Source: Cyanobacteria bacterium FACHB-502 (GTDB lineage: Bacteria > Cyanobacteriota > Cyanobacteriia > Elainellales > Elainellaceae). Taken from it: a stretch of 64,000 nt of DNA. The notes below the pieces were generated by a model. It ran no database searches, was not told the origin of the DNA, and was given only the letters and a program-made list of their open reading frames with translations. Made by a program: the position numbers and the translations under genes. Positions 12,172-41,304 of this stretch are shown piece by piece. Location: assembly GCA_014695325.1 (NCBI GenBank), contig JACJNZ010000052.1:1-64000 (forward strand), written 5' to 3'. How positions within the stretch are numbered: the first letter of the stretch is position 1; the number at the start of each line of letters is the position of its first letter.

Positions 12172-12949
12172 CGCAAAAAAAATTCCCGAACACCAAAATG
12201 GAGTCCAGGAAATTGAAATCAGGGTGCATCTACCACTCCCTCTTTCCCTGGAAGTGACTGCCCGTCCGGAAAATTTGACCCAGATTTTTAGCTTAGTTTT
12301 TAGTTTTAGCCCAATCTCGATTTCCCGGAAAGACAATTTTGCAGCCTGCTTGAAAAGCTCAAATCTCGCCGTAACTTTTTTGCGTGGGCTGCGTCTTAGG
12401 GTTCAGTAGCTGGATCGAGTATCCTACAGACTGCGATCGGAATAGGACGGGGCTTAGACCAGATCTGCCTTGGAACTGTTCTGGCAGACCTGTATTGGGA
12501 TAGATTCGATCTGGATTGCTGAACTCTCCTGGGCAATGCTCAGGCAGACGAACAATGGATGAAAACGGAGTGGATGAAAACAGAGCGCGATTCGAGCTTT
12601 TTTATACCTCTATCCCCGCTAAGTAAGGTAGCGATTATCCTTCTGGCGATCTGCGAAGCGGACGGCTAGAACGAGCGGAAATTGAAGCAGCTCACCAGGA
12701 TTTATTTCCTGATTGGTTTGCAAGTTTGATGAACTTCGCTTGTAAGCGTCTGATTTTCGCTAGGCTAGCAAATGTTGTGTTTATCAGGGGCTCTGAGCTT
12801 GCCTTTCGCCGATGTGCTGTTCCGCCTCCTGGGTTCAGTCTTTTGTCGATCGTCCGATTTACTGTTTTGTCCATTGTTCAGTCCATCGAGGTTCAGCCCT
12901 CAGAGAGCCGCAGATTCAGTTGAGCGATTAGCAGGAGCGCACGGGTAAG
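12172..12949. other. Long intergenic region, no convincing gene
   Basis: 778 bp separate the RTX protein from the CHAT gene. Short frames (for example 12726-12923) lack family resemblance and good start sites. A tandem repeat of about 15 bp (GGATGAAAACGGAGT / GGATGAAAACAGAGC) occurs near 12554-12583. Promoter elements for the CHAT gene are expected near 12850-12930, but none can be assigned with confidence. Confidence 0.4.
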
Positions 12950-32312: not shown

Positions 32313-32406
32313 TTACAGCGTTCTTCACTCCCGTAAGGTATGGGGGGTGTGGGGGCTTTCTCGCCGTACAGGGTTCCGCCCCTGCCCCCCATTTTTTGTA
32401 CTTCAA
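32313..32406 (+). repeat. 94-bp dispersed repeat, left copy of an inverted pair
   Basis: This 94-bp sequence starts TTACAGCG and ends TTGTACTTCAA. It matches the reverse complement of 38406-38499 with four mismatches and no gaps. Internally it has GGGGGTGTGGGGG facing CCCCTGCCCCCC, plus a short CAGGG/CCCTG hairpin, so it is palindromic and GC-rich. It lies about 57 bp beyond the stop codon of the membrane hydrolase gene. A plus- or minus-strand frame through it is coincidental. Confidence 0.9.
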
Positions 32407-32463
32407 TCGTCTGAACAAGGTTGTATCTGATGTCATCTCAATCGAGTCATCCATAAAACTGGC

Positions 32464-34029
32464 TCAGCCTGACAGCGGAAACCCAGCTGCTAACACCCAG
32501 CCAAAAAACAGCGCGCTCGCGATCGACGAGATCCAGGCTTCATCGAGCGATGCCACCACAAACGACAGCACGGCAATCAGCGGCGGAAACAGCGGCAGCA
32601 GCAAAAACACAAACCCTAGCTCTGGCAAGAAATTCAGCGTTAGTACAAAGCCACCGATGAGAATTGCACTCTGGGCAAACCACCAGGCAAATCGCTCTCC
32701 GTTTCCCGCGCCCTGCTGAGCAATCCCAGAAGCCAGAAACCAGGGCAGACAGGCGAGCGCAAACGGTAGCCATACCTGAAGCCGAGTTGGAATTAACCAC
32801 CATTGCAGCCAGACCACCTGCGCCATGGCCCCAAACGCAAACCATAGCAGCACAAATAGTCCGAAACCGATCGCGATCCGTCGCCCGCTCAGCCGAGGAA
32901 TTCGTCCCAGCAAAGCCAGCCAGATACTTCCGGCAATCAAAAACCAGAGTCCGATCGCCCCGCCAACCTGCACGCCGCCCAAACTTTGCAGATTGATTCG
33001 GGAATTCAGCAGCACCAGTCCCGCAACACCCGGCAGGGGAGCCAGCAGCAGTCCCCCCCATCGCTTAATCGCAGAGATTTTCATGCGATCAGGTTCAAAC
33101 CAGCCTGCCACCGTGGGAGCCACTGCCCCAATCAGCAGCAGTCCGCCCAGCAAATGCAAACCATACCACGCCATCCGCCGATCGCGATAAGGGCTGGAAT
33201 GGGTCTGGTTAAACGTGGCATCCAGCCAGCGCACCGCAGACTCGTGACTGCGATCGCTAAACAAAATCGTGATGTGCTCGACATTGGGCACGATAACTAG
33301 TTCTCGCGCCGTTCCTGCGGCAAAGTTTTTGTTTTCACCGCCACCGGTCTGCAAAATTCGCTCGGCATTACTGATAAACCTGCCTTCCCAACTTCCTGCC
33401 TGCATTTGCAAATTTCGGGGAGCCTGGGGCGTTACGGCTGCCCCTGTGGGAGAAACAGCGATCGTGGCTGCAAATCGATCAAGATTTTGAATTCCGGCAG
33501 ACATGGCAATGCCGCTGCCCATCGAGTGACCCAGGACTGCCAGCCGCGTGCGATCGACTTCTGGCTGTTCGAGCAGTGCCCTCAACCCCACATCCAAATT
33601 GGACTGGAGGTCGTATCGCTGCAATCGATTCGGATTTGCACCGTGTCCGTCAAAGTCCCAGAGCATCACAGCATAGCCGGCGTGAGCCAGCACATGAGCA
33701 TAGCCCAACATGAGCTGTTTGGAACCTGCATAACCATGCGCCACCAGCACACCCGGCACTGAATTTGCCCCTGAATCTGCCTGTGCCGGAGCAACATAAA
33801 TCAAGGGAATGTTTTCCTGCTCCAGGGTTCGCACGACCAATCCACTCCGCGCTGCAACAATATTCCACCAGGACAGCACAATAAGCGCGATCGCCCCAAT
33901 CAATAGCCCTAGCTGAAATCGCTTCAATCTCCTGTCTCCCGGTTTCGATCGATCTGCCGCTATTATTTCAACAATCCAGCGATCGGGCGCATCACTCCAA
34001 GGGCAGCATCCGAGATGGCTACCGGGCAA
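32464..34029 (-). CDS. Alpha/beta hydrolase fused to a multi-helix membrane domain
   Basis: A protein of up to 521 residues. After a membrane helix ([19 protein letters not shown]), an alpha/beta-hydrolase domain spans about 60-290. Its oxyanion region is [12 protein letters not shown], the nucleophile elbow GHSMGSG, an acid-containing strand [10 protein letters not shown], and the catalytic His is in VEHITILF. The C-terminal 220 residues hold about seven hydrophobic helices. The TTG at 34029 overlaps the end of the upstream GST gene by 11 bp, implying translational coupling, but no ATG exists nearby and the true start is uncertain. The function may be lipid or peptide ester hydrolysis at the membrane. 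A 94-bp repeat lies just downstream. Confidence 0.75.
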
Positions 34030-35218
34030 AAAGAGCCGGGTCTTGATCGCGCCGATGCTTGAGCATAATCGGAATCCCCTGACGATCGCCTACTAGAGCA
34101 GCCGTTGCCTCCAGTGCCTCTCTCAGCCGCTTTGCTGCATAAATGGACATATCGCGAGGCACATTAATTCGATCGCGCAAATACCGCAAGGCAGCATCCG
34201 ATCCAGGTGGTGGAACACAATCTTCGCCCGTCATCATCCGGGTTAAGGCACAGCGTAACGCCTGATCAAAGAGCGCATCGTCGGCAGGGTTCACGCGAAT
34301 AATATTGGCACGATGCTTAATCACGCGATAAAGAGCTTCCTGACGAGCGTTTCCCGGCTCTGGATAAGTTACATCCGGCAGGCCAAACCAGGATCCGTTG
34401 TCTACTCGATGCTTGTTGATCAGCATTTGCGGCTCCCCGTTTTCCCAGCAACCGCCCATCTGAGGAGGCAAATCATGAGCGTGGGTATGAAAGTCGCTTT
34501 GCGTACCGCGATAGGTCGATCGGCTCTCCATCGCATCAAACCAGGCACTCAGGCTGGGATTCGATCGCAGCGAGTAGCCTTTGTAGTAATAAAGGCTGGC
34601 ATTCATGCGTTCGACGTAGGGTGTGAAGATCATATCTGCCGTGCCAAACTCTTCCAGAAAATAAGGACCGGGCGTACTTGCCAGCGCAAACTCAACCTTA
34701 TCCACAATTCCGGTAAACTGCTCTCGGCTATGTTGTTCCTGCCGGGCTGACGTTGATGGATAGCAGAGCCAGCCGCACCAGGCACGAAACAGCAATCGCT
34801 CCAGGCGGCGCAGGGGAATGACCCGGGGGTCTTCCATACCCTTTCCTAAAGAACCAAAAGCGCGTTCCAGGGCAAGTAAAATATCATCGCTTTCGGTGAT
34901 CAGCCGTCCGTCTAACTCCAGCGCGGGCAGCATCCCGGAAGGCACTTTGCGCTTGTACCAGCTTTCCTTTTCCCCGTAACAAAACATCGTCACTTTCTCG
35001 ATGCGGTAGGGAATTTGCTTTTCCTCAAGCCACAGCCAAACCTTCTGGCAGTAGGGACACCAGGCATGATTGTCGCGATAAAGCGTCACCCGCACATCGG
35101 ACTCGGAATGACCAAACAACCGCAGCCGCGCCTGAGCATTGGTTGGACCATTGACCGTATCAATTTGAAAGTCGGTAAGGGCTTCGAGTTCTGTCCAGTT
35201 TAGGGGGGCAAGGGTCAT
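34019..35218 (-). CDS. Glutathione S-transferase family protein (glutaredoxin-like CPYC N-domain)
   Basis: A 399-residue protein. The thioredoxin-fold N-domain carries [20 protein letters not shown], resembling omega/glutaredoxin-like GSTs. It is followed by the cis-Pro segment [13 protein letters not shown] and the ESDDI glutathione-binding motif. A helical GST C-domain follows. About 150 further residues at the C-terminus are an unusual extension (contains [22 protein letters not shown]). ATG 35218 is used. The overlap with the downstream hydrolase gene suggests a two-gene operon. Role unknown; a thiol-transferase or lyase is plausible. Confidence 0.82.
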
Positions 35219-35544
35219 GCGATCGACTGTCCTAGGATACGCTCAAGGCTTTCAGTCTATCAGAAGCCAATCCTTCCCTGTCCTGGCTCTCCTTTCGTTA
35301 CAGGAAGGCAAAGCATTTAGCCAATGTGACCTTTCGAGTTCTTCTTCCGATGCTGCAATCGGGTAGAAGTTTCATAACCCTGTTGCTGTCAGCATCCAAT
35401 TGTTATCAAACCCCGCTTTTCGGTTGCGATAAATAGCACGCATCGCATTTGGATTGTCGCTTGGCTTAACTTTAATTTGGCAAAAGGAAACTCATCCCTA
35501 GTAGGCTAGAAAAGCTGACTTTTTGGTTTACCACTGCTCGATTC
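35219..35544. other. Divergent promoter region, nothing specific seen
   Basis: 325 bp between the divergent GST gene and a hypothetical gene. The sequence has no dispersed repeats. No confident promoter or operator motif was recognised. Confidence 0.35.
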
Positions 35545-36048
35545 ATGCAAAAAACTAAAGCTTTCGCAATCCTGGTTTCTGTTCCAGAAATGCACCTGAT
35601 ATCTGGTTTAGAAGCGATCGCTGCCCAACTGGATTCTGAGGATCTGCCGCCTGATCAGCTCCCTAAAGTGGCGTTTGGCAGCATGGATTTTGAGCTGTTT
35701 GGGGAGATCGAGAAGCTGCGGGGCGGGAAGGCGATCGAAGTGTTCATTCATGCTGCTGATGCCAAGGGAGACCAGCCCCTCAACCCAGAAGTGACCTGGC
35801 GGGGATGGTATGTAGGGTATGTTGCCTCCCGTCGCGGTCGCTATCCCGGCAAATCGATCTATCGCCCCCCATCGACTGCGACTGATCCCCCAACCTGGGC
35901 AGTCTTTTGGGAGGCGCAGGAATTAGAGCAGCTCAAGAAGCCAATTGCGATCGGCCACCTGCGAGGGAAAGGGAAGAAAACTAGTCTCCAAGCTCGCTTT
36001 ATTCCAGAAAGCCCCGTTTTAATTGAATATCCCGCTATCCGGCAGTAG
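35545..36048 (+). CDS. Conserved hypothetical protein
   Basis: A 167-residue soluble protein with ATG 35545. It has a low-hydrophobicity, mixed alpha/beta composition and a central WRGWYVGYVASRRGRYPG block, with basic residues near the C-terminus (RGKGKKTSLQARF). It lacks a signal peptide or membrane segment. I do not recognise the family, though composition and codon use look genuine. It is convergent with the metal-transporter permease gene. Confidence 0.6.
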   Translation: MQKTKAFAILVSVPEMHLISGLEAIAAQLDSEDLPPDQLPKVAFGSMDFELFGEIEKLRGGKAIEVFIHAADAKGDQPLNPEVTWRGWYVGYVASRRGRYPGKSIYRPPSTATDPPTWAVFWEAQELEQLKKPIAIGHLRGKGKKTSLQARFIPESPVLIEYPAIRQ

Positions 36049-36176
36049 TTTAATTTGCGCTGCAAGGAATGTACAGTACATTGCTGCCCACGATGGCAAT
36101 TCTGAATTAGTGGCAGGAGTGGCTGCACGACCAGGTCTTCAACGACTCTGACCAGCAAGCAACCGTGTGAATCGAT

Positions 36177-37472
36177 CTACATCACGGTAGCTCTGGGCGA
36201 TCGTTGCATTCCCAGAAACCCAGCCAGTGAGAGCAGCACTAAGGGAACTCCCAACACCCACCGCTGCCGCCGTCGCGCTGCATTTCGCAGTTCTCGCTGC
36301 ACAAATTTCTCTCCGTTTCGCATCTCGTGAAACGACATGGTATAGGAGGAGATGCGGCGCAGTTCTCGATCGCTCAATCCTTCTCCCTGCCAGCGGCTCT
36401 GACGTTCGATTTGATCGAGTCGGGCAATTTCAGACTGCCAGCGATCGGACCCTAACCCCGCCTGCTGAAGGTCATTTTGTTCGTCGGAACTCAGGAACGC
36501 CTGCCGCAACGCTGGATAACAAGTTTCCAGCCAATCCAGTAAGGGCTGATCAGCATTGGGATTCAGGGTTAACCAGATGCCAGAAGCAAGGGCGATCGTG
36601 AGAAGGCTGGTAATTCCCCAAGAGCCTGCCTGCTTCAGAATTTGCAGCCGCGCTGAACTAAAAATAAACGGTCTCAGGAGTGCTGTCAGTGCCAGGATGC
36701 CGCCAAACACACAGACAATCGTGGCTCCTGTGGGCAGATTGCCGACAAACGACAGGCTTAATCCGACGCTGCTGGATAAGGTGCCAATCGCCCAGCCGAT
36801 CAGCAGTTTCGGCAAAATCCGATCGCTGTAGAGTGCGCCGATCGCCGCCGGAATAATCAGAAAGCAAAACACCAGCAGCACCCCTGCAATGGCAACCGAA
36901 CTCGTCACCACCACGCCAAAGGAAACATAAAACAAAAAATCCCACAGCCACAGCCGCAAGCCTGCCTGTTTCGCCAAATCGGGCTGAAAAGAAATTAGCA
37001 ACAACGGTTTGCGAACAAACCAGTGAAACAAGCCGACTGCGCTGTAGAGCAGCACAACTTTCAGCAAGTCTGTCTCAGTGACGGTGAGGATGCTGCCAAT
37101 CAACATTTGCTTGATATGCTCTGCGCCCTGCGGGGACTGATCCACCAGCAAAAACGCTGCCGCTGCCGATACCACATACACCACGCCAATAAAGGTTTCC
37201 TGTGAAACGCGCCCAGTCCAGCTTCGGCTAAAGCTGAGGACGATCGCACCACCGATCGTAAATGCCAGCGAGTAGCCGTAAGCCGCGATCGATTGTGGGT
37301 AGTAGCCCAGCAGAAAGGCAACCGTTGCGCCCAGTGCTGAGATCTGGGCCAGTGCCAAATCGACAAAAATAATGTTGCGGCTGAGAACGTGAATGCCCAG
37401 ATAGGTATGGATGCCTGTCAGAACCAGGGCAACCAGAAACGGAATCGTCAATAATTGCAGCCAATCAGCCAT
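36177..37472 (-). CDS. Metal ABC transporter permease (ZnuB/MntB-like) with C-terminal extension
   Basis: A 431-residue ABC-3 family permease. The first about 290 residues hold the usual seven to nine helices, with typical blocks GIHTYLGIHVLSRNIIFVDLALAQISALG and SVAIAGVLLVFCFLIIPAAIG. Beyond that is an extra about 140-residue region: one helix, a charged segment with SSDEQNDLQQAGLGSDRWQ, and a final helix (WVLGVPLVLLSLAGFLG). Such an extension is not usual for ZnuB. It overlaps the upstream binding-protein gene by 8 bp, so translation is coupled. The ATPase gene is not present in this operon. Confidence 0.85.
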   Translation of the reverse strand: MADWLQLLTIPFLVALVLTGIHTYLGIHVLSRNIIFVDLALAQISALGATVAFLLGYYPQSIAAYGYSLAFTIGGAIVLSFSRSWTGRVSQETFIGVVYVVSAAAAFLLVDQSPQGAEHIKQMLIGSILTVTETDLLKVVLLYSAVGLFHWFVRKPLLLISFQPDLAKQAGLRLWLWDFLFYVSFGVVVTSSVAIAGVLLVFCFLIIPAAIGALYSDRILPKLLIGWAIGTLSSSVGLSLSFVGNLPTGATIVCVFGGILALTALLRPFIFSSARLQILKQAGSWGITSLLTIALASGIWLTLNPNADQPLLDWLETCYPALRQAFLSSDEQNDLQQAGLGSDRWQSEIARLDQIERQSRWQGEGLSDRELRRISSYTMSFHEMRNGEKFVQRELRNAARRRQRWVLGVPLVLLSLAGFLGMQRSPRATVM

Positions 37473-38397
37473 GTGATCCCCCCAGTGCCGCTAGCAGTGC
37501 ACTGATGTTGTAGTCGAACAGGGAAAAATAATCGTATGCTTGGGGAATTGCGCCAATCGATGAAACCAGCATCACAACAGGAACTCTGGTTTTGCTGCTG
37601 AGTAAGCGCGGAATGCGATCAGACTCGTAGGGTTCGCGGATAATGACGGCAACCTGCTGATCTTTGATTTCTCGCAGCAGGGCAGCGATATGGGTAGGGC
37701 TAGGCGGAATTCCAGGTTTGGCTTCGATAAAGTCCAGCAGATTCAACCGGAAGCGACGTGCCAGGTAGGGCCAGCTATTGTGATAGGCGACAATCGCCTG
37801 ACCGCGAAAGGGAGCAAGCTGCTGTTCCCAGGTCGTTAGCCGCTCCTGCAACTGAGCCAAAAAGCGCGCTCGATTGGCTTCATACAAGGCGGCATGGTTA
37901 GGATCAATGCGCTCCAGCCCTTCCAGGATGCCGCCTGTAATCACCTCAGCATTTGCTGGATCAAGCCAGTAGTGCGGATTTCCAGCACCGTGATTGTGAC
38001 CGTCGATCGGGGCAATACTGGTCGATCGCACTTCCAGGAGAGGGATTCCGACAGAGGCATCAACATAGCCCACTCCGCCCCGCTGAATTTCCCGGTTTCC
38101 GGTTTCTGCCAGCAGCGAATCGATCCACAGGTCATGATCTAAGCCAACTTTCACGACCATCTGTGCGCTTTTGAGCATCTGAAAGTCACCCGGACGCGGC
38201 TCAAAACTGTGGGGATCTTGGGCAGGAAGGGCGATACTTGTGACTGTTACGCGATCGCCGCCCACGACCTCCACTAAACTTTTCAAATCCGTTGTGGTCG
38301 TTACTACCTGCAGAGGTGTGCTATCTGCCCAGGCAGGCATCATCCAACCCAGGCAGAAGATAAGCAGGTAAACGGCTCCAAACCAGAATCGTGTCAT
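37465..38397 (-). CDS. znuA: Metal (Zn/Mn) ABC transporter substrate-binding protein
   Basis: A 310-residue cluster 9 (TroA/ZnuA) binding protein. ATG 38397 starts a clean signal peptide (MTRFWFGAVYLLIFCLGWMM...AWA). The metal-binding His residues are in DPHSFEPRPGDF, a short His-containing loop GHNHGAGNPHYW, and VAYHNSWPYLARRF, with Glu/Asp in the C-domain (IREPYESDRIP). Zinc is favoured by the loop, but manganese cannot be excluded; the gene symbol is therefore tentative. It is the first gene of the operon with the permease. The 94-bp repeat lies only 8 bp upstream of the start codon and thus forms part of the leader. Confidence 0.85.
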   Translation of the reverse strand: MTRFWFGAVYLLIFCLGWMMPAWADSTPLQVVTTTTDLKSLVEVVGGDRVTVTSIALPAQDPHSFEPRPGDFQMLKSAQMVVKVGLDHDLWIDSLLAETGNREIQRGGVGYVDASVGIPLLEVRSTSIAPIDGHNHGAGNPHYWLDPANAEVITGGILEGLERIDPNHAALYEANRARFLAQLQERLTTWEQQLAPFRGQAIVAYHNSWPYLARRFRLNLLDFIEAKPGIPPSPTHIAALLREIKDQQVAVIIREPYESDRIPRLLSSKTRVPVVMLVSSIGAIPQAYDYFSLFDYNISALLAALGGSHG

Positions 38398-38405
38398 TTG
38401 TTTAT

Positions 38406-38499
38406 TTGAAGTACAAAAAATGGGGTGCAGGGGCAGAACCCTGTACGGCGAGAAAGCCCCCACACCCCCCGTACCTTACGGGAGTGAAAAACGCTGTAA
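38406..38499 (-). repeat. 94-bp dispersed repeat, right copy, abutting znuA start
   Basis: The reverse complement of 32313-32406 with four differences over 94 bp (about 96% identity). It ends 8 bp before the znuA ATG and starts 15 bp from the stop codon of the amidase gene, so it fills the whole intergenic space. Depending on where transcription starts, it could act as the znuA leader hairpin or as a terminator for the upstream amidase gene. There is no visible ribosome-binding site between repeat and ATG. Confidence 0.9.
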
Positions 38500-38514
38500 T
38501 CTACAAAGCGTTAA

Positions 38515-39882
38515 TCAGCTTTTTACCCAAACGCTCTTCGGCAATACACAGGAGAGCCCCTTCTCTTCTGCATCCATTTTGCTAATCCGGCAGTCCATTT
38601 GCACACTTGCCAGGCCGTAGGCATCCAGCTCAGATAAGCCTTTCTCCTGCTGCAAAAGCTGAATCATTGCCATGGATGCGTTCGCCATGACCTGATTCAG
38701 ATCGGAACCGCGATCGGAGGTGACAAAATATTCAGCGTTGCTGCTGGTCGGATAATCAACCGGCCTAGCTGCTCGCGGATTTTTCGGATTCAGACAGTGA
38801 ATGCCGCGTACTCGATTCACAACCTGCGAAATGCGACAGTCCGAAACTCTGGGCATCAATTCCGCCGCCGCTTCCAACGTGATGCTGCGCTGTTCCGCCA
38901 GGAATTTCACCGTTTCTGTTTTTGCCATCTCCAGTGCCGTGTCCAGACTTTGATCTAAGCCGATCGTAATCCAGTCCGTTGGCGTTTCACCGCGCGGCAT
39001 CGTCAGGCTTTGTCCTTTAATCACCGAAACGTTTAGCACCAGTTCTTTGAATGCGGTTTCCAGTGCGGTCAGGTTAATTTCGCCGTTGCCCTGTGCAGCA
39101 TGCGAATCCCCGGTCCAGAGCAGTGCCCCGTCGACAAACACAGGAATATAGAGCGTTGTGCCTGCGGTGAGATCGCGAATGTCCAGGTTTCCGGCGTAGG
39201 GTCCGGGGGGAACGGTGCTATATTCTCCGGCTTCTGCCCGCGCCACCCCGATCGTCCCCGGAAAGGGTTCTAGCGGAATTTCGATTTCTGGCGTAAACTT
39301 CGCAACCTTCTGCTCCATATCCAGATACAGATACTTCACCTGTCCATTCTGGAAGCGATCGGGAAACAAGCCGAACAGCCCGGGCAGGTTAAAATTTGCC
39401 GCATAGGCGCGGGGCACAACTCTGAGGATATCTACCTTCAGCACATCCCCTGGCTTTGCATCACGAACATAGATTGGACCTGTAACCGTATGCGGTCCCC
39501 GTCCCGGAAAATCGGTTCGCAGCTTTTTCAGTTCGTCTACGGTTTTACCAGGAACGACCTGATTGTGGGAGTGCATCATCGTCTCCACCACAACGGTATC
39601 CCCAGAATCAATTTCCATCACGGGAGGTTGAGCATTGTTAAACCATCCCCATTGGGTTGTTTCTAAGGTTGCGGGCAGCAAATGCACCTTGCCAGGATAA
39701 GATGCGTCCGTTGTTCGCAGCAGCGCAATTGTCGCTTTTGCATCCATTTCTTGCACCTGCTGAGCATAGGCAGCCGTAGCAAAAATGACGGCAAACACCG
39801 CTAGCCCTAAACTGAGCCATTTTAACCGCAGCGACTTCCAGCTATCTCGCAATTGTGCGATCGATTTTTGAATGTTTTGCAT
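38515..39882 (-). CDS. Exported acetamidase/formamidase-family protein
   Basis: A 455-residue member of the FmdA/AmdA family. ATG 39882 is fixed by a perfect AAGGAGGT site 5 bp upstream. Unlike ordinary cytoplasmic formamidases it begins with an N-terminal hydrophobic segment ending in AYAQQ (LSLGLAVFAVIFATAAYAQQ), so it is probably exported. Family blocks are MEIDSGDTVVVETMMHSHN, VRDAKPGDVLKVDIL and WTGDSHAAQGNGEI. A long C-terminal part has two copies of a DCRIS motif (SDCRISQVVNR and MDCRISKMDAE). The substrate is uncertain. It is downstream of cynS and a two-component system, suggesting a role in nitrogen scavenging. Confidence 0.85.
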   Translation of the reverse strand: MQNIQKSIAQLRDSWKSLRLKWLSLGLAVFAVIFATAAYAQQVQEMDAKATIALLRTTDASYPGKVHLLPATLETTQWGWFNNAQPPVMEIDSGDTVVVETMMHSHNQVVPGKTVDELKKLRTDFPGRGPHTVTGPIYVRDAKPGDVLKVDILRVVPRAYAANFNLPGLFGLFPDRFQNGQVKYLYLDMEQKVAKFTPEIEIPLEPFPGTIGVARAEAGEYSTVPPGPYAGNLDIRDLTAGTTLYIPVFVDGALLWTGDSHAAQGNGEINLTALETAFKELVLNVSVIKGQSLTMPRGETPTDWITIGLDQSLDTALEMAKTETVKFLAEQRSITLEAAAELMPRVSDCRISQVVNRVRGIHCLNPKNPRAARPVDYPTSSNAEYFVTSDRGSDLNQVMANASMAMIQLLQQEKGLSELDAYGLASVQMDCRISKMDAEEKGLSCVLPKSVWVKS

Positions 39883-39910
39883 CAATACCTCCTTACTCCA
39901 CACTCACGAT

Positions 39911-40035
39911 GATTCCTGTAATCCGAACCGCCCCCTATATTCCCCTAAGCCTGGGGAAAAGTGTGCTTCCCTGCGGGTTCCAAAGTCTCCCAATCCTGGG
40001 TATTGCGGGAGCAATGTAGAAGATTTGCTACTTTT
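39911..40035 (+). repeat. Degenerate copy of the dispersed repeat (copy D)
   Basis: The segment TCCAAAGTCTCCCAATCCTG then GGTATTGCGGGAGCAATGTAG (39979-40020) matches the repeat core with a weakened palindrome. The left half has CCCCTAAGCCTGGGG and CTTCCCTGCGGG, comparable to parts of copies B and G. It is situated between the small membrane gene and the amidase gene. Confidence 0.55.
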
Positions 40036-40068
40036 TAACTATCTTCAACTATCCTTTCAACCTTTCTT

Positions 40069-40251
40069 CTAGAACAAACGATGCAAAATCGCAACAGTAC
40101 CAGATAAAACCTGTCCTAAACCAATCAACGCCAGCACCATCATAATAAACTGAAACCAATTCCTTGCGGGATCAAATTCTATGTCCGATCGCCTATCCTG
40201 ATTCGTTCTCGTTGATGTTTTGATTGGCATTCTCATGCGTGTTCTTACCAC
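40069..40251 (-). CDS. Small single-pass membrane protein downstream of cyanase
   Basis: A peptide of 53-60 residues: GTG at 40251 would overlap the cynS stop codon, while ATG at 40236 or 40230 would start just after it. The N-terminal half is basic and polar ([18 protein letters not shown]). The C-terminal half is one hydrophobic helix ([22 protein letters not shown]). Tight coupling to cynS and sensible membrane-protein architecture favour a real gene, but the family is not recognised. Confidence 0.45.
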
Positions 40252-40694
40252 TTCTTATAGGGCAGAAACTTACCGTTCATAATCACCTTTACTCGATCGC
40301 CCTTTGGATCTTCTTCTTTCTCAATATTCAGGGTGAAGTCGATCGCGCTCATAATGCCATCACCAAACTTCTCGTGAATGATTTCTTTCATCGGCATTCC
40401 GTAGACCTGCATGATTTCGTAGAAGCGATAAATCAGCGGGTCGGTTGGGACGATCGGACCCAAACCCTTTGCGGGATACGCCATCAGTTCTGTCGCAATG
40501 TCGCTGCCTAAACCCAATGCTTCTACAAGTTTGCTGGCTTCTTCTGCCGATGCGCTTGCCTGCCGATAAATCACAGCAGCAATCCAAACTTCATTGCGCC
40601 CGACAACCTGCTCTAACTCAGCAAAACTGATTCCCTTTTCGGCTTTTGCTGCCAGAAGTTTTTGCGTAATCATCGGAATTTCTACATCAGACAT
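40245..40694 (-). CDS. cynS: Cyanate hydratase (cyanase)
   Basis: A 149-residue enzyme converting cyanate plus bicarbonate to ammonia and CO2. ATG 40694 follows GAGGAG. The N-terminal helical DNA-binding-like domain is seen ([29 protein letters not shown]). The catalytic C-domain contains [17 protein letters not shown] (Arg/Glu of the active site), [18 protein letters not shown] (Ser), and ends in FLPYKKW. Usually cyanobacterial cynS follows the cynABD transporter; here it is instead next to an exported amidase homologue and a two-component system, which may control it. Confidence 0.95.
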
Positions 40695-41304
40695 TGATCT
40701 TCTCCTCAATCATTTGGACAACAATTTGGAATAGAAATAGCATCAAGGGTGCTTCCTGGGGATGGACATCTGGACTCTCATCGGGATATCCCACTTCTAC
40801 AGTTGATTGAATCCAAAATTCTTTTCGTGATTCAGTTCACTGCCTGAATGCGGGACTTTTCAACCGCGATCATCGATCATTGCCGCTGGCGTCTGAGGCA
40901 TACTTTCCCAAAACTCCCAGTGGTCTTGGGACAAATGATTACCGCTACAGGGACACTCAGCCTTTGCCGTCAAGTCAATTCCTTGCAAACCTGTCATGGC
41001 AGTGAATGAGTAAGAATAAGTGAATGCAGTATCCACCGCAGCGGGAACGATACGAGTTAAAGAATTTCGAGCAGCCCCTGAAGGATATTCAAACAGGTAA
41101 TGAAAGGGGACTCATGAAAACTTTTTGGGAAAAATAGGATTTTTTTTAGATCTTTTTTAGATAATAAATTGATGCATAGAGTAATACTTAGAAAAGCTAA
41201 AAAAGCTACAAAACGAATTTCAGGAAAAAACAGCCAGGCAGCATACTTTACCTCACCTGAATGTATTGTTCAAAACAGAAATAAAGCTATTTTTCAGACA
41301 GAAA
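40695..41304. other. Upstream region of cynS, no gene seen
   Basis: 610 bp between the regulator gene and cynS. A T-rich direct repeat (TTTTTTTAGATCTTTTTTAGAT, 41143-41163 region) and AT-rich sequence lie near the 3' end of the regulator. A reading frame at 41169-41396 overlaps the regulator's end and is not convincing. No GTA-N8-TAC (NtcA) site was found by eye. Confidence 0.35.

Follow-up and report, generated by a model that had tools for sequence, protein, structure and literature searches.

The repeat in front of znuA

In the window, i.e., the whole analysed stretch of 64,000 nucleotides, a znuA-like metal-uptake gene is preceded by a repeat that lies between its start codon and the stop codon of an amidase gene. 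The question is what this repeat is and what it does to the genes on either side. A sequence-only reading had placed a 94-bp copy 15 bp from the amidase stop codon and 8 bp from the znuA ATG, and both distances are exact. That is, the repeat covers 38406-38499 on the minus strand, which leaves 38500-38514 (15 bp) between it and the amidase stop codon (38515-38517), and 38398-38405 (8 bp) between it and the znuA ATG, which begins at 38397. The respective features are as follows.

36177-37472, minus strand: znuB-like permease (PF00950, domain match) with a C-terminal extension, overlapping znuA by 8 bp
37465-38397, minus strand: znuA-like metal-binding protein (PF01297, domain match), N-terminus aligned with orthologs
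38515-39882, minus strand: acetamidase/formamidase-family protein (PF03069, domain match) with a signal-peptide-like N-terminus
38398-38514, minus strand: whole spacer from amidase stop codon to znuA ATG (117 bp), i.e., element plus short flanks; absent in the same-genus genome G001
38406-38498, minus strand: body of the MITE; its left end is at 38498, its right end is lacking (from aligned family copies)
38485-38498, minus strand: left terminal inverted repeat TACAGCGTTTTTCA (from end-pattern search and end comparison)
38422-38468, minus strand: 13-bp GC-rich hairpin, arms 38456-38468 and 38422-38434 (predicted fold)
38415-38420, minus strand: TTTTTT tract after the hairpin, with one A between (from the sequence)
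38500-38517, minus strand: weak candidate for a mirrored vestige of another left end, in which case the amidase stop codon would be part of it (11-nt local match)
32314-32425, plus strand: second copy of the same MITE in the window, two-ended, inverted relative to the znuA copy

The signal-peptide-like N-terminus suggests that the amidase is exported. ZnuB-like proteins (430-487 aa) extend well past their ABC-3 domain match, and no ABC ATPase is found among the six proteins scanned at the locus. Upstream of the amidase, at 40245-40709, lies what we take to be a cyanase-like protein; a protein similar to this product is found at the same place before the amidase in G001.

The inverted partner of the 94-nt repeat is located at 32313-32406 and is 96% complementary to it. 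The similarity is far beyond chance: the partner has an E-value of 1.4e-37, and a third copy at another place in the genome one of 1.4e-34. The length of 94 bp describes only the stretch common to both window copies, not the full element. The two copies (32313-38499) are inverted and 6 kb apart, such that recombination between them could invert the znuA-znuB segment.

A dispersed family with IS630-type ends

With the 117-bp spacer as query, 37 places are matched in its own genome at E-values up to 10, many of the weaker ones being pieces of shorter variants or chance matches. At E-values up to 1e-4, matches are present in 6 of 60 genomes (own genome included). G001 holds at least 14 of them (14 of 52 candidates scored), and those in G007 and G009 comprise the core only.

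We searched for both ends of the element, allowing up to two mismatches. The left-end pattern has 25 sites in the own genome and 18 in G001 (backward-read controls: 8 and 3), the right-end pattern 16 and 24 sites, respectively (controls: 0 and 1). Combining both ends yields at least 32 two-ended copies of 74-170 bp among the fetched loci, 15 of them in the own genome (77-128 bp) and 17 in G001; this count leaves out copies with one worn end, e.g., the znuA copy. Complete copies of the own genome consist, with small variations, of TACAGCGTTTTTCACT, a GC-rich core, ATTTTTTGTACTTCA and then TGAACAAGGCTGTA. The znuA copy retains the left end, departs from the family after TTCAA and has lost the right end. 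The 11-nt match of 38500-38517 to the left end is equalled by 24 of 2000 shuffles, and the predicted fold has this stretch base-paired to the left end.

The family has the size and copy number of a MITE, i.e., it is shorter than about 200 bp, dispersed and multi-copy, and carries no transposase gene. It also has terminal inverted repeats: the left and right consensus ends of the own-genome copies match inversely at 12 of 14 nt, a score equalled by 1 of 2000 shuffles. A 1034-bp IS of the same genome (G000:C93:3647-4680), reached via the right-end pattern, has two overlapping frames for a transposase with a DDE_3 domain (E-value 2.1e-32). Its ends agree with the MITE consensus ends at 12 of the outer 14 nt, and both have a common inner GTAC block at the same spacing. 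Neither the right-end similarity (over 30 nt) nor the left-end similarity (over 28 nt) is reached by any of 2000 shuffles. Given this match to an IS630-family (DDE_3) IS of the same genome, the spacer element is very probably an IS630-type MITE.

IS630 elements insert at TA, with ISY100 given as an example (PMC2170065). TA borders nearly all two-ended copies of our family, but the search pattern itself contained TA. The znuA site shows neither the right end nor a TA duplication. In the one alignment to a potential empty site (L013 vs. G001) the flanks have diverged, and the two sides of the left window copy have their matches on separate G001 contigs; no clean empty site with a single TA was found at either place. 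Among 33 elements, 8 lie between direct repeats of at least 7 nt (7-16 nt), with about 1 (1.0) expected from permuted pairs; seven of these eight pairs, from copies of the own genome and G001, belong to the znuA-spacer family and one to another. A TA-only duplication does not explain such repeats, which could mean longer duplications in some copies.

Probable insertion into a compact operon

ZnuA orthologs with 62-83% identity are found in G001, G006, G055 and Leptolyngbya sp. FACHB-321. A MAG labelled Proteobacteria carries one that is less similar (41%). The element is absent from the amidase-znuA junction in the relatives examined. In G001, the amidase TAG is directly followed by the znuA ATG (0 bp). 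The junction measures 6 bp in G055, is a 4-bp overlap in Leptolyngbya sp. FACHB-321, and is a 4-nt overlap in the MAG (L123) if TTG is its start. Only the G006 junction is spaced (about 96 bp), with its own, different hairpin; a second independent mobile insertion was rejected there, the spacer being single-copy in that genome. That is, the two genes overlap or are at most 6 bp apart in 4 of 5 orthologous loci, which makes it most likely that a compact amidase-znuA-znuB operon was interrupted by the element. We consider an insertion into a formerly compact operon very probable. The gene arrangement further suggests that amidase, znuA and znuB share one transcript.

The amidase/ZnuA-like/ZnuB-like cassette (36177-39882 in the window) recurs in the MAG labelled Proteobacteria.

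Signals and structure in the leader

The sequence-only reading had noted that the position of the repeat leaves no room for a conventional promoter or Shine-Dalgarno site, and that no Zur-box-like palindrome is visible. Our scans agree. No sigma-70-like promoter is found on either strand in 38000-40300 (2.2 expected by chance), and no Shine-Dalgarno-like motif precedes the znuA ATG. At the junction, no palindrome is within three mismatches of four Zur patterns, scanned with no chance control. The same scan lists a site with three mismatches before the amidase, at about 40221-40235, which is not found in the respective upstream stretch of G001, and one inside the operon. As znuA is apparently operon-internal in most orthologous loci, the absence of an own promoter or Zur box is expected rather than odd.

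Read in operon direction, the element provides a 13-bp GC stem, one A, TTTTTT and then 17 nt up to the znuA ATG. The best hairpin adjoining the T tract has an energy of -32.4 kcal/mol. The minus strand of the element folds better than 199 of 200 shuffles; for the whole leader, 2 of 200 shuffles fold as well (z-score -3.2). In the minimum-energy structure of the leader, early znuA codons are base-paired to part of the start region, which is open only in the centroid structure.

A GC stem followed directly by a T tract is the form of a Rho-independent terminator, and the earlier suggestion that the hairpin terminates amidase transcription holds as a prediction, given the 13-bp GC stem and A-TTTTTT in operon direction. 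A simple terminator scan does not list the hairpin; its loop limit is 3-8 nt, compared to a loop of about 21 nt here. Family-wide, a hairpin adjoins the T tract in 29 of 33 copies (-3.9 to -42.1 kcal/mol, counted without a shuffled control) and is lacking at the tract in the other 4/33. TTTTTT is unbroken in 17/33 copies and interrupted in 16/33. Two other copies are not unusually stable: 19 of 200 shuffles fold as well for the left window copy and 113 of 200 for that of locus L023.

The stable stems predicted in the transcript are also compatible with an RNA processing site, i.e., RNases could cut or protect the hairpin such that the amidase and znuAB messages differ in stability. Transcripts containing Correia elements are reported to be cut by RNase III, and ERIC to have effects via RNase E (PMC10969869). 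With just 13 bp, the stem ahead of the T tract is short, however, and we rate this possibility as quite improbable.

Even less credence can be given to a regulated leader, i.e., to the element acting as a promoter or metal-responsive switch for znuA. In its favour are the location directly upstream of a metal-uptake gene and the fold statistics of the leader (z-score -3.2). Against it, the same transposon sequence also stands beside other genes, there is no Zur-like palindrome at the junction, and no Rfam family matches the spacer at the gathering score. The proposal of a dedicated leader controlling znuA translation, with zinc or manganese as signal, was thus dropped. The same applies to a promoter carried by the element, for which there is no sigma-70-like match and only 17 nt between the T run and the ATG. 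Since this distance is too short for a promoter and none was found, znuA transcripts should have crossed the hairpin.

Predicted consequences for the operon

The reading that we favour, with somewhat better than even confidence, is that transposition brought in a terminator that is constitutive and probably partial, with termination inferred from its form. According to this model, a truncated copy of an IS630-type MITE would have transposed into the stop-start junction of the compact amidase-znuA-znuB operon. RNA polymerase coming from the amidase would meet the terminator-like hairpin, and znuAB would depend on read-through, its transcript level being a reduced share of the amidase level that does not respond to metals. 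With the stop-start contact lost, ribosomes could no longer pass directly from the amidase to znuA, and znuA translation would start on the AU-rich stretch after the hairpin. Whether the predicted partial termination is real in vivo we regard as an even call. A precedent for reduced downstream expression is provided by BIMEs, some of which, when located inside operons, are described as attenuators (PMC3049150).

Next, we asked how the copies are oriented relative to their neighbouring genes. With regard to the T run, both neighbours are co-directional for 12 of the 33 copies and opposed for 12, with 6 divergent and 3 convergent contexts. Genes were called by a simple codon-usage script and one copy lies inside a called frame, so single assignments may be wrong. 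Genes that end within 60 bp of a copy do so six times on the input side of the terminator and six times on the other (hand count). Thus, we observe no preferential placement after genes in terminating orientation (12 vs. 12), which counts against selection of the element as a terminator.

We also compared the evolutionary rates of the downstream genes. Relative-rate tests with three outgroups show no significant acceleration of znuA or znuB. With G055 as outgroup, znuA gives the largest chi-square (2.67; 16 changes on the own-genome side, 8 on the G001 side); the other two outgroups give 9 vs. 12 and 10 vs. 6 changes. Relaxed selection on znuA after the insertion was therefore rejected as a candidate, the rate difference not being significant. 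Pairwise dN/dS values are 0.138 (znuA), 0.080 (znuB) and 0.055 (amidase, without its start codon). Since ZnuA and ZnuB lack significant acceleration, silencing is unlikely to be complete, or it is very recent; the intact, not significantly accelerated proteins fit read-through better than silencing.

Both observations, i.e., the absence of orientation bias and the intact, not significantly accelerated znuA and znuB, also speak for a neutral passenger that polymerase would read through, leaving the operon co-transcribed and changing only the spacing. The title of the original Chunjie paper likewise has a MITE residing in an operon without disturbing it. Against this alternative stand the GC stem, with six T behind it as read along the operon, and the loss of the stop-start contact, and we consider it unlikely. 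We keep the partial terminator as the best reading. The insertion event explains the puzzling znuA leader, and the own genome and G001 form a natural with/without pair in which one could measure how a MITE hairpin affects a compact operon. The spacer element itself is ordinary: a neat instance of a familiar type of event and not a new regulatory leader.

A GC core shared by differently ended elements

The more interesting side finding is that the GC core is shared by MITEs with other ends (79.6-95.9% identity). Among 12 further G001 loci that were read, nine (L136-L144) have the ends of a second family, and three (L145, L146, L147) are hybrids that combine a left end of the second type with the right end of the znuA-spacer family. 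In four elements of G009 (L061, L065, L067, L069), the GC core is located within TTAGTAC-type ends.

A survey of the class (291 genomes, three candidates scored per genome) with the full-length query gives matches at E-values up to 1e-8 in 17 genomes (own genome included). Ten of them show the core only and G023 the left end only. In G009, G118 and G157 the match comprises the core together with the left end, complete or in part; in the own genome, G001 and G013 it spans nearly the whole query.

On this basis, it is conceivable, if speculative and rather doubtful, that the GC hairpin of roughly 50 bp moves as an independent cassette between differently ended MITE families across cyanobacteria and uncouples operon genes via terminator-like hairpins, the znuA junction being one such event. 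If true, one structural module would be reused by several transposon families, which would matter more than the znuA insertion.

Two further observations concern other parts of the window. Another dispersed repeat, of TCAAAGTCCCCCAGCATTGGGGGATTTAGG type, is present in four 42-nt copies (69-100% identity) at 1881, 7868, 22046 and 51285. The Rfam family NsiR1 (nitrogen stress-induced RNA 1) matches at 12176-12235 with 54.5 bits.

Comparison with known systems

In a literature search on MITEs, terminators and cyanobacteria, with subscription journals mostly outside its coverage, no title among the matches listed describes the znuA-spacer element. A text search with four core strings likewise has no title on a cyanobacterial repeat among the matches listed.

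Within cyanobacteria, MITEs of Anabaena sp. 90 are the subject of PMC3542288, and Nezha, resembling our element in being a cyanobacterial MITE, is presented with ISNpu3-like elements as proposed mover (PMC3049150). ISY100 of Synechocystis (IS630/Tc1/mariner) is a cyanobacterial IS630-type element with short imperfect inverted repeats and TA duplication. It differs from the IS of our genome (1034 bp, two overlapping frames) in its length of 947 bp and its single 282-aa transposase (PMC2170065).

The Chunjie MITE of Geobacter uraniireducens shares the location in an uptake operon (PMC10969869) and is longer (178-235 bp). According to that review, it disrupts a phosphate uptake operon; the title of the original report states that the operon is undisturbed.

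Closest in shape is SPRITE of Streptococcus pneumoniae, a small dispersed repeat with the form of a Rho-independent terminator (PMC3049150). It is cited for the notion that MITEs might conceivably act as such terminators (PMC10969869). SPRITE is described as AT-rich and enriched close to gene 3' ends, with no recognised IS relative (PMC3049150), whereas our element has IS630 ends and shows no orientation bias.

Closest in kind is RUP, also of S. pneumoniae, which we liken to our element by description. RUP is 107 bp long, intergenic and has TA at its ends, and these resemble the ends of an IS630-family IS in its own genome, with IS630-Spn1 as its proposed mover (PMC2229807). Besides the different host, that review gives no functional motif for RUP, whereas the znuA-spacer element carries a GC core with a T tract.
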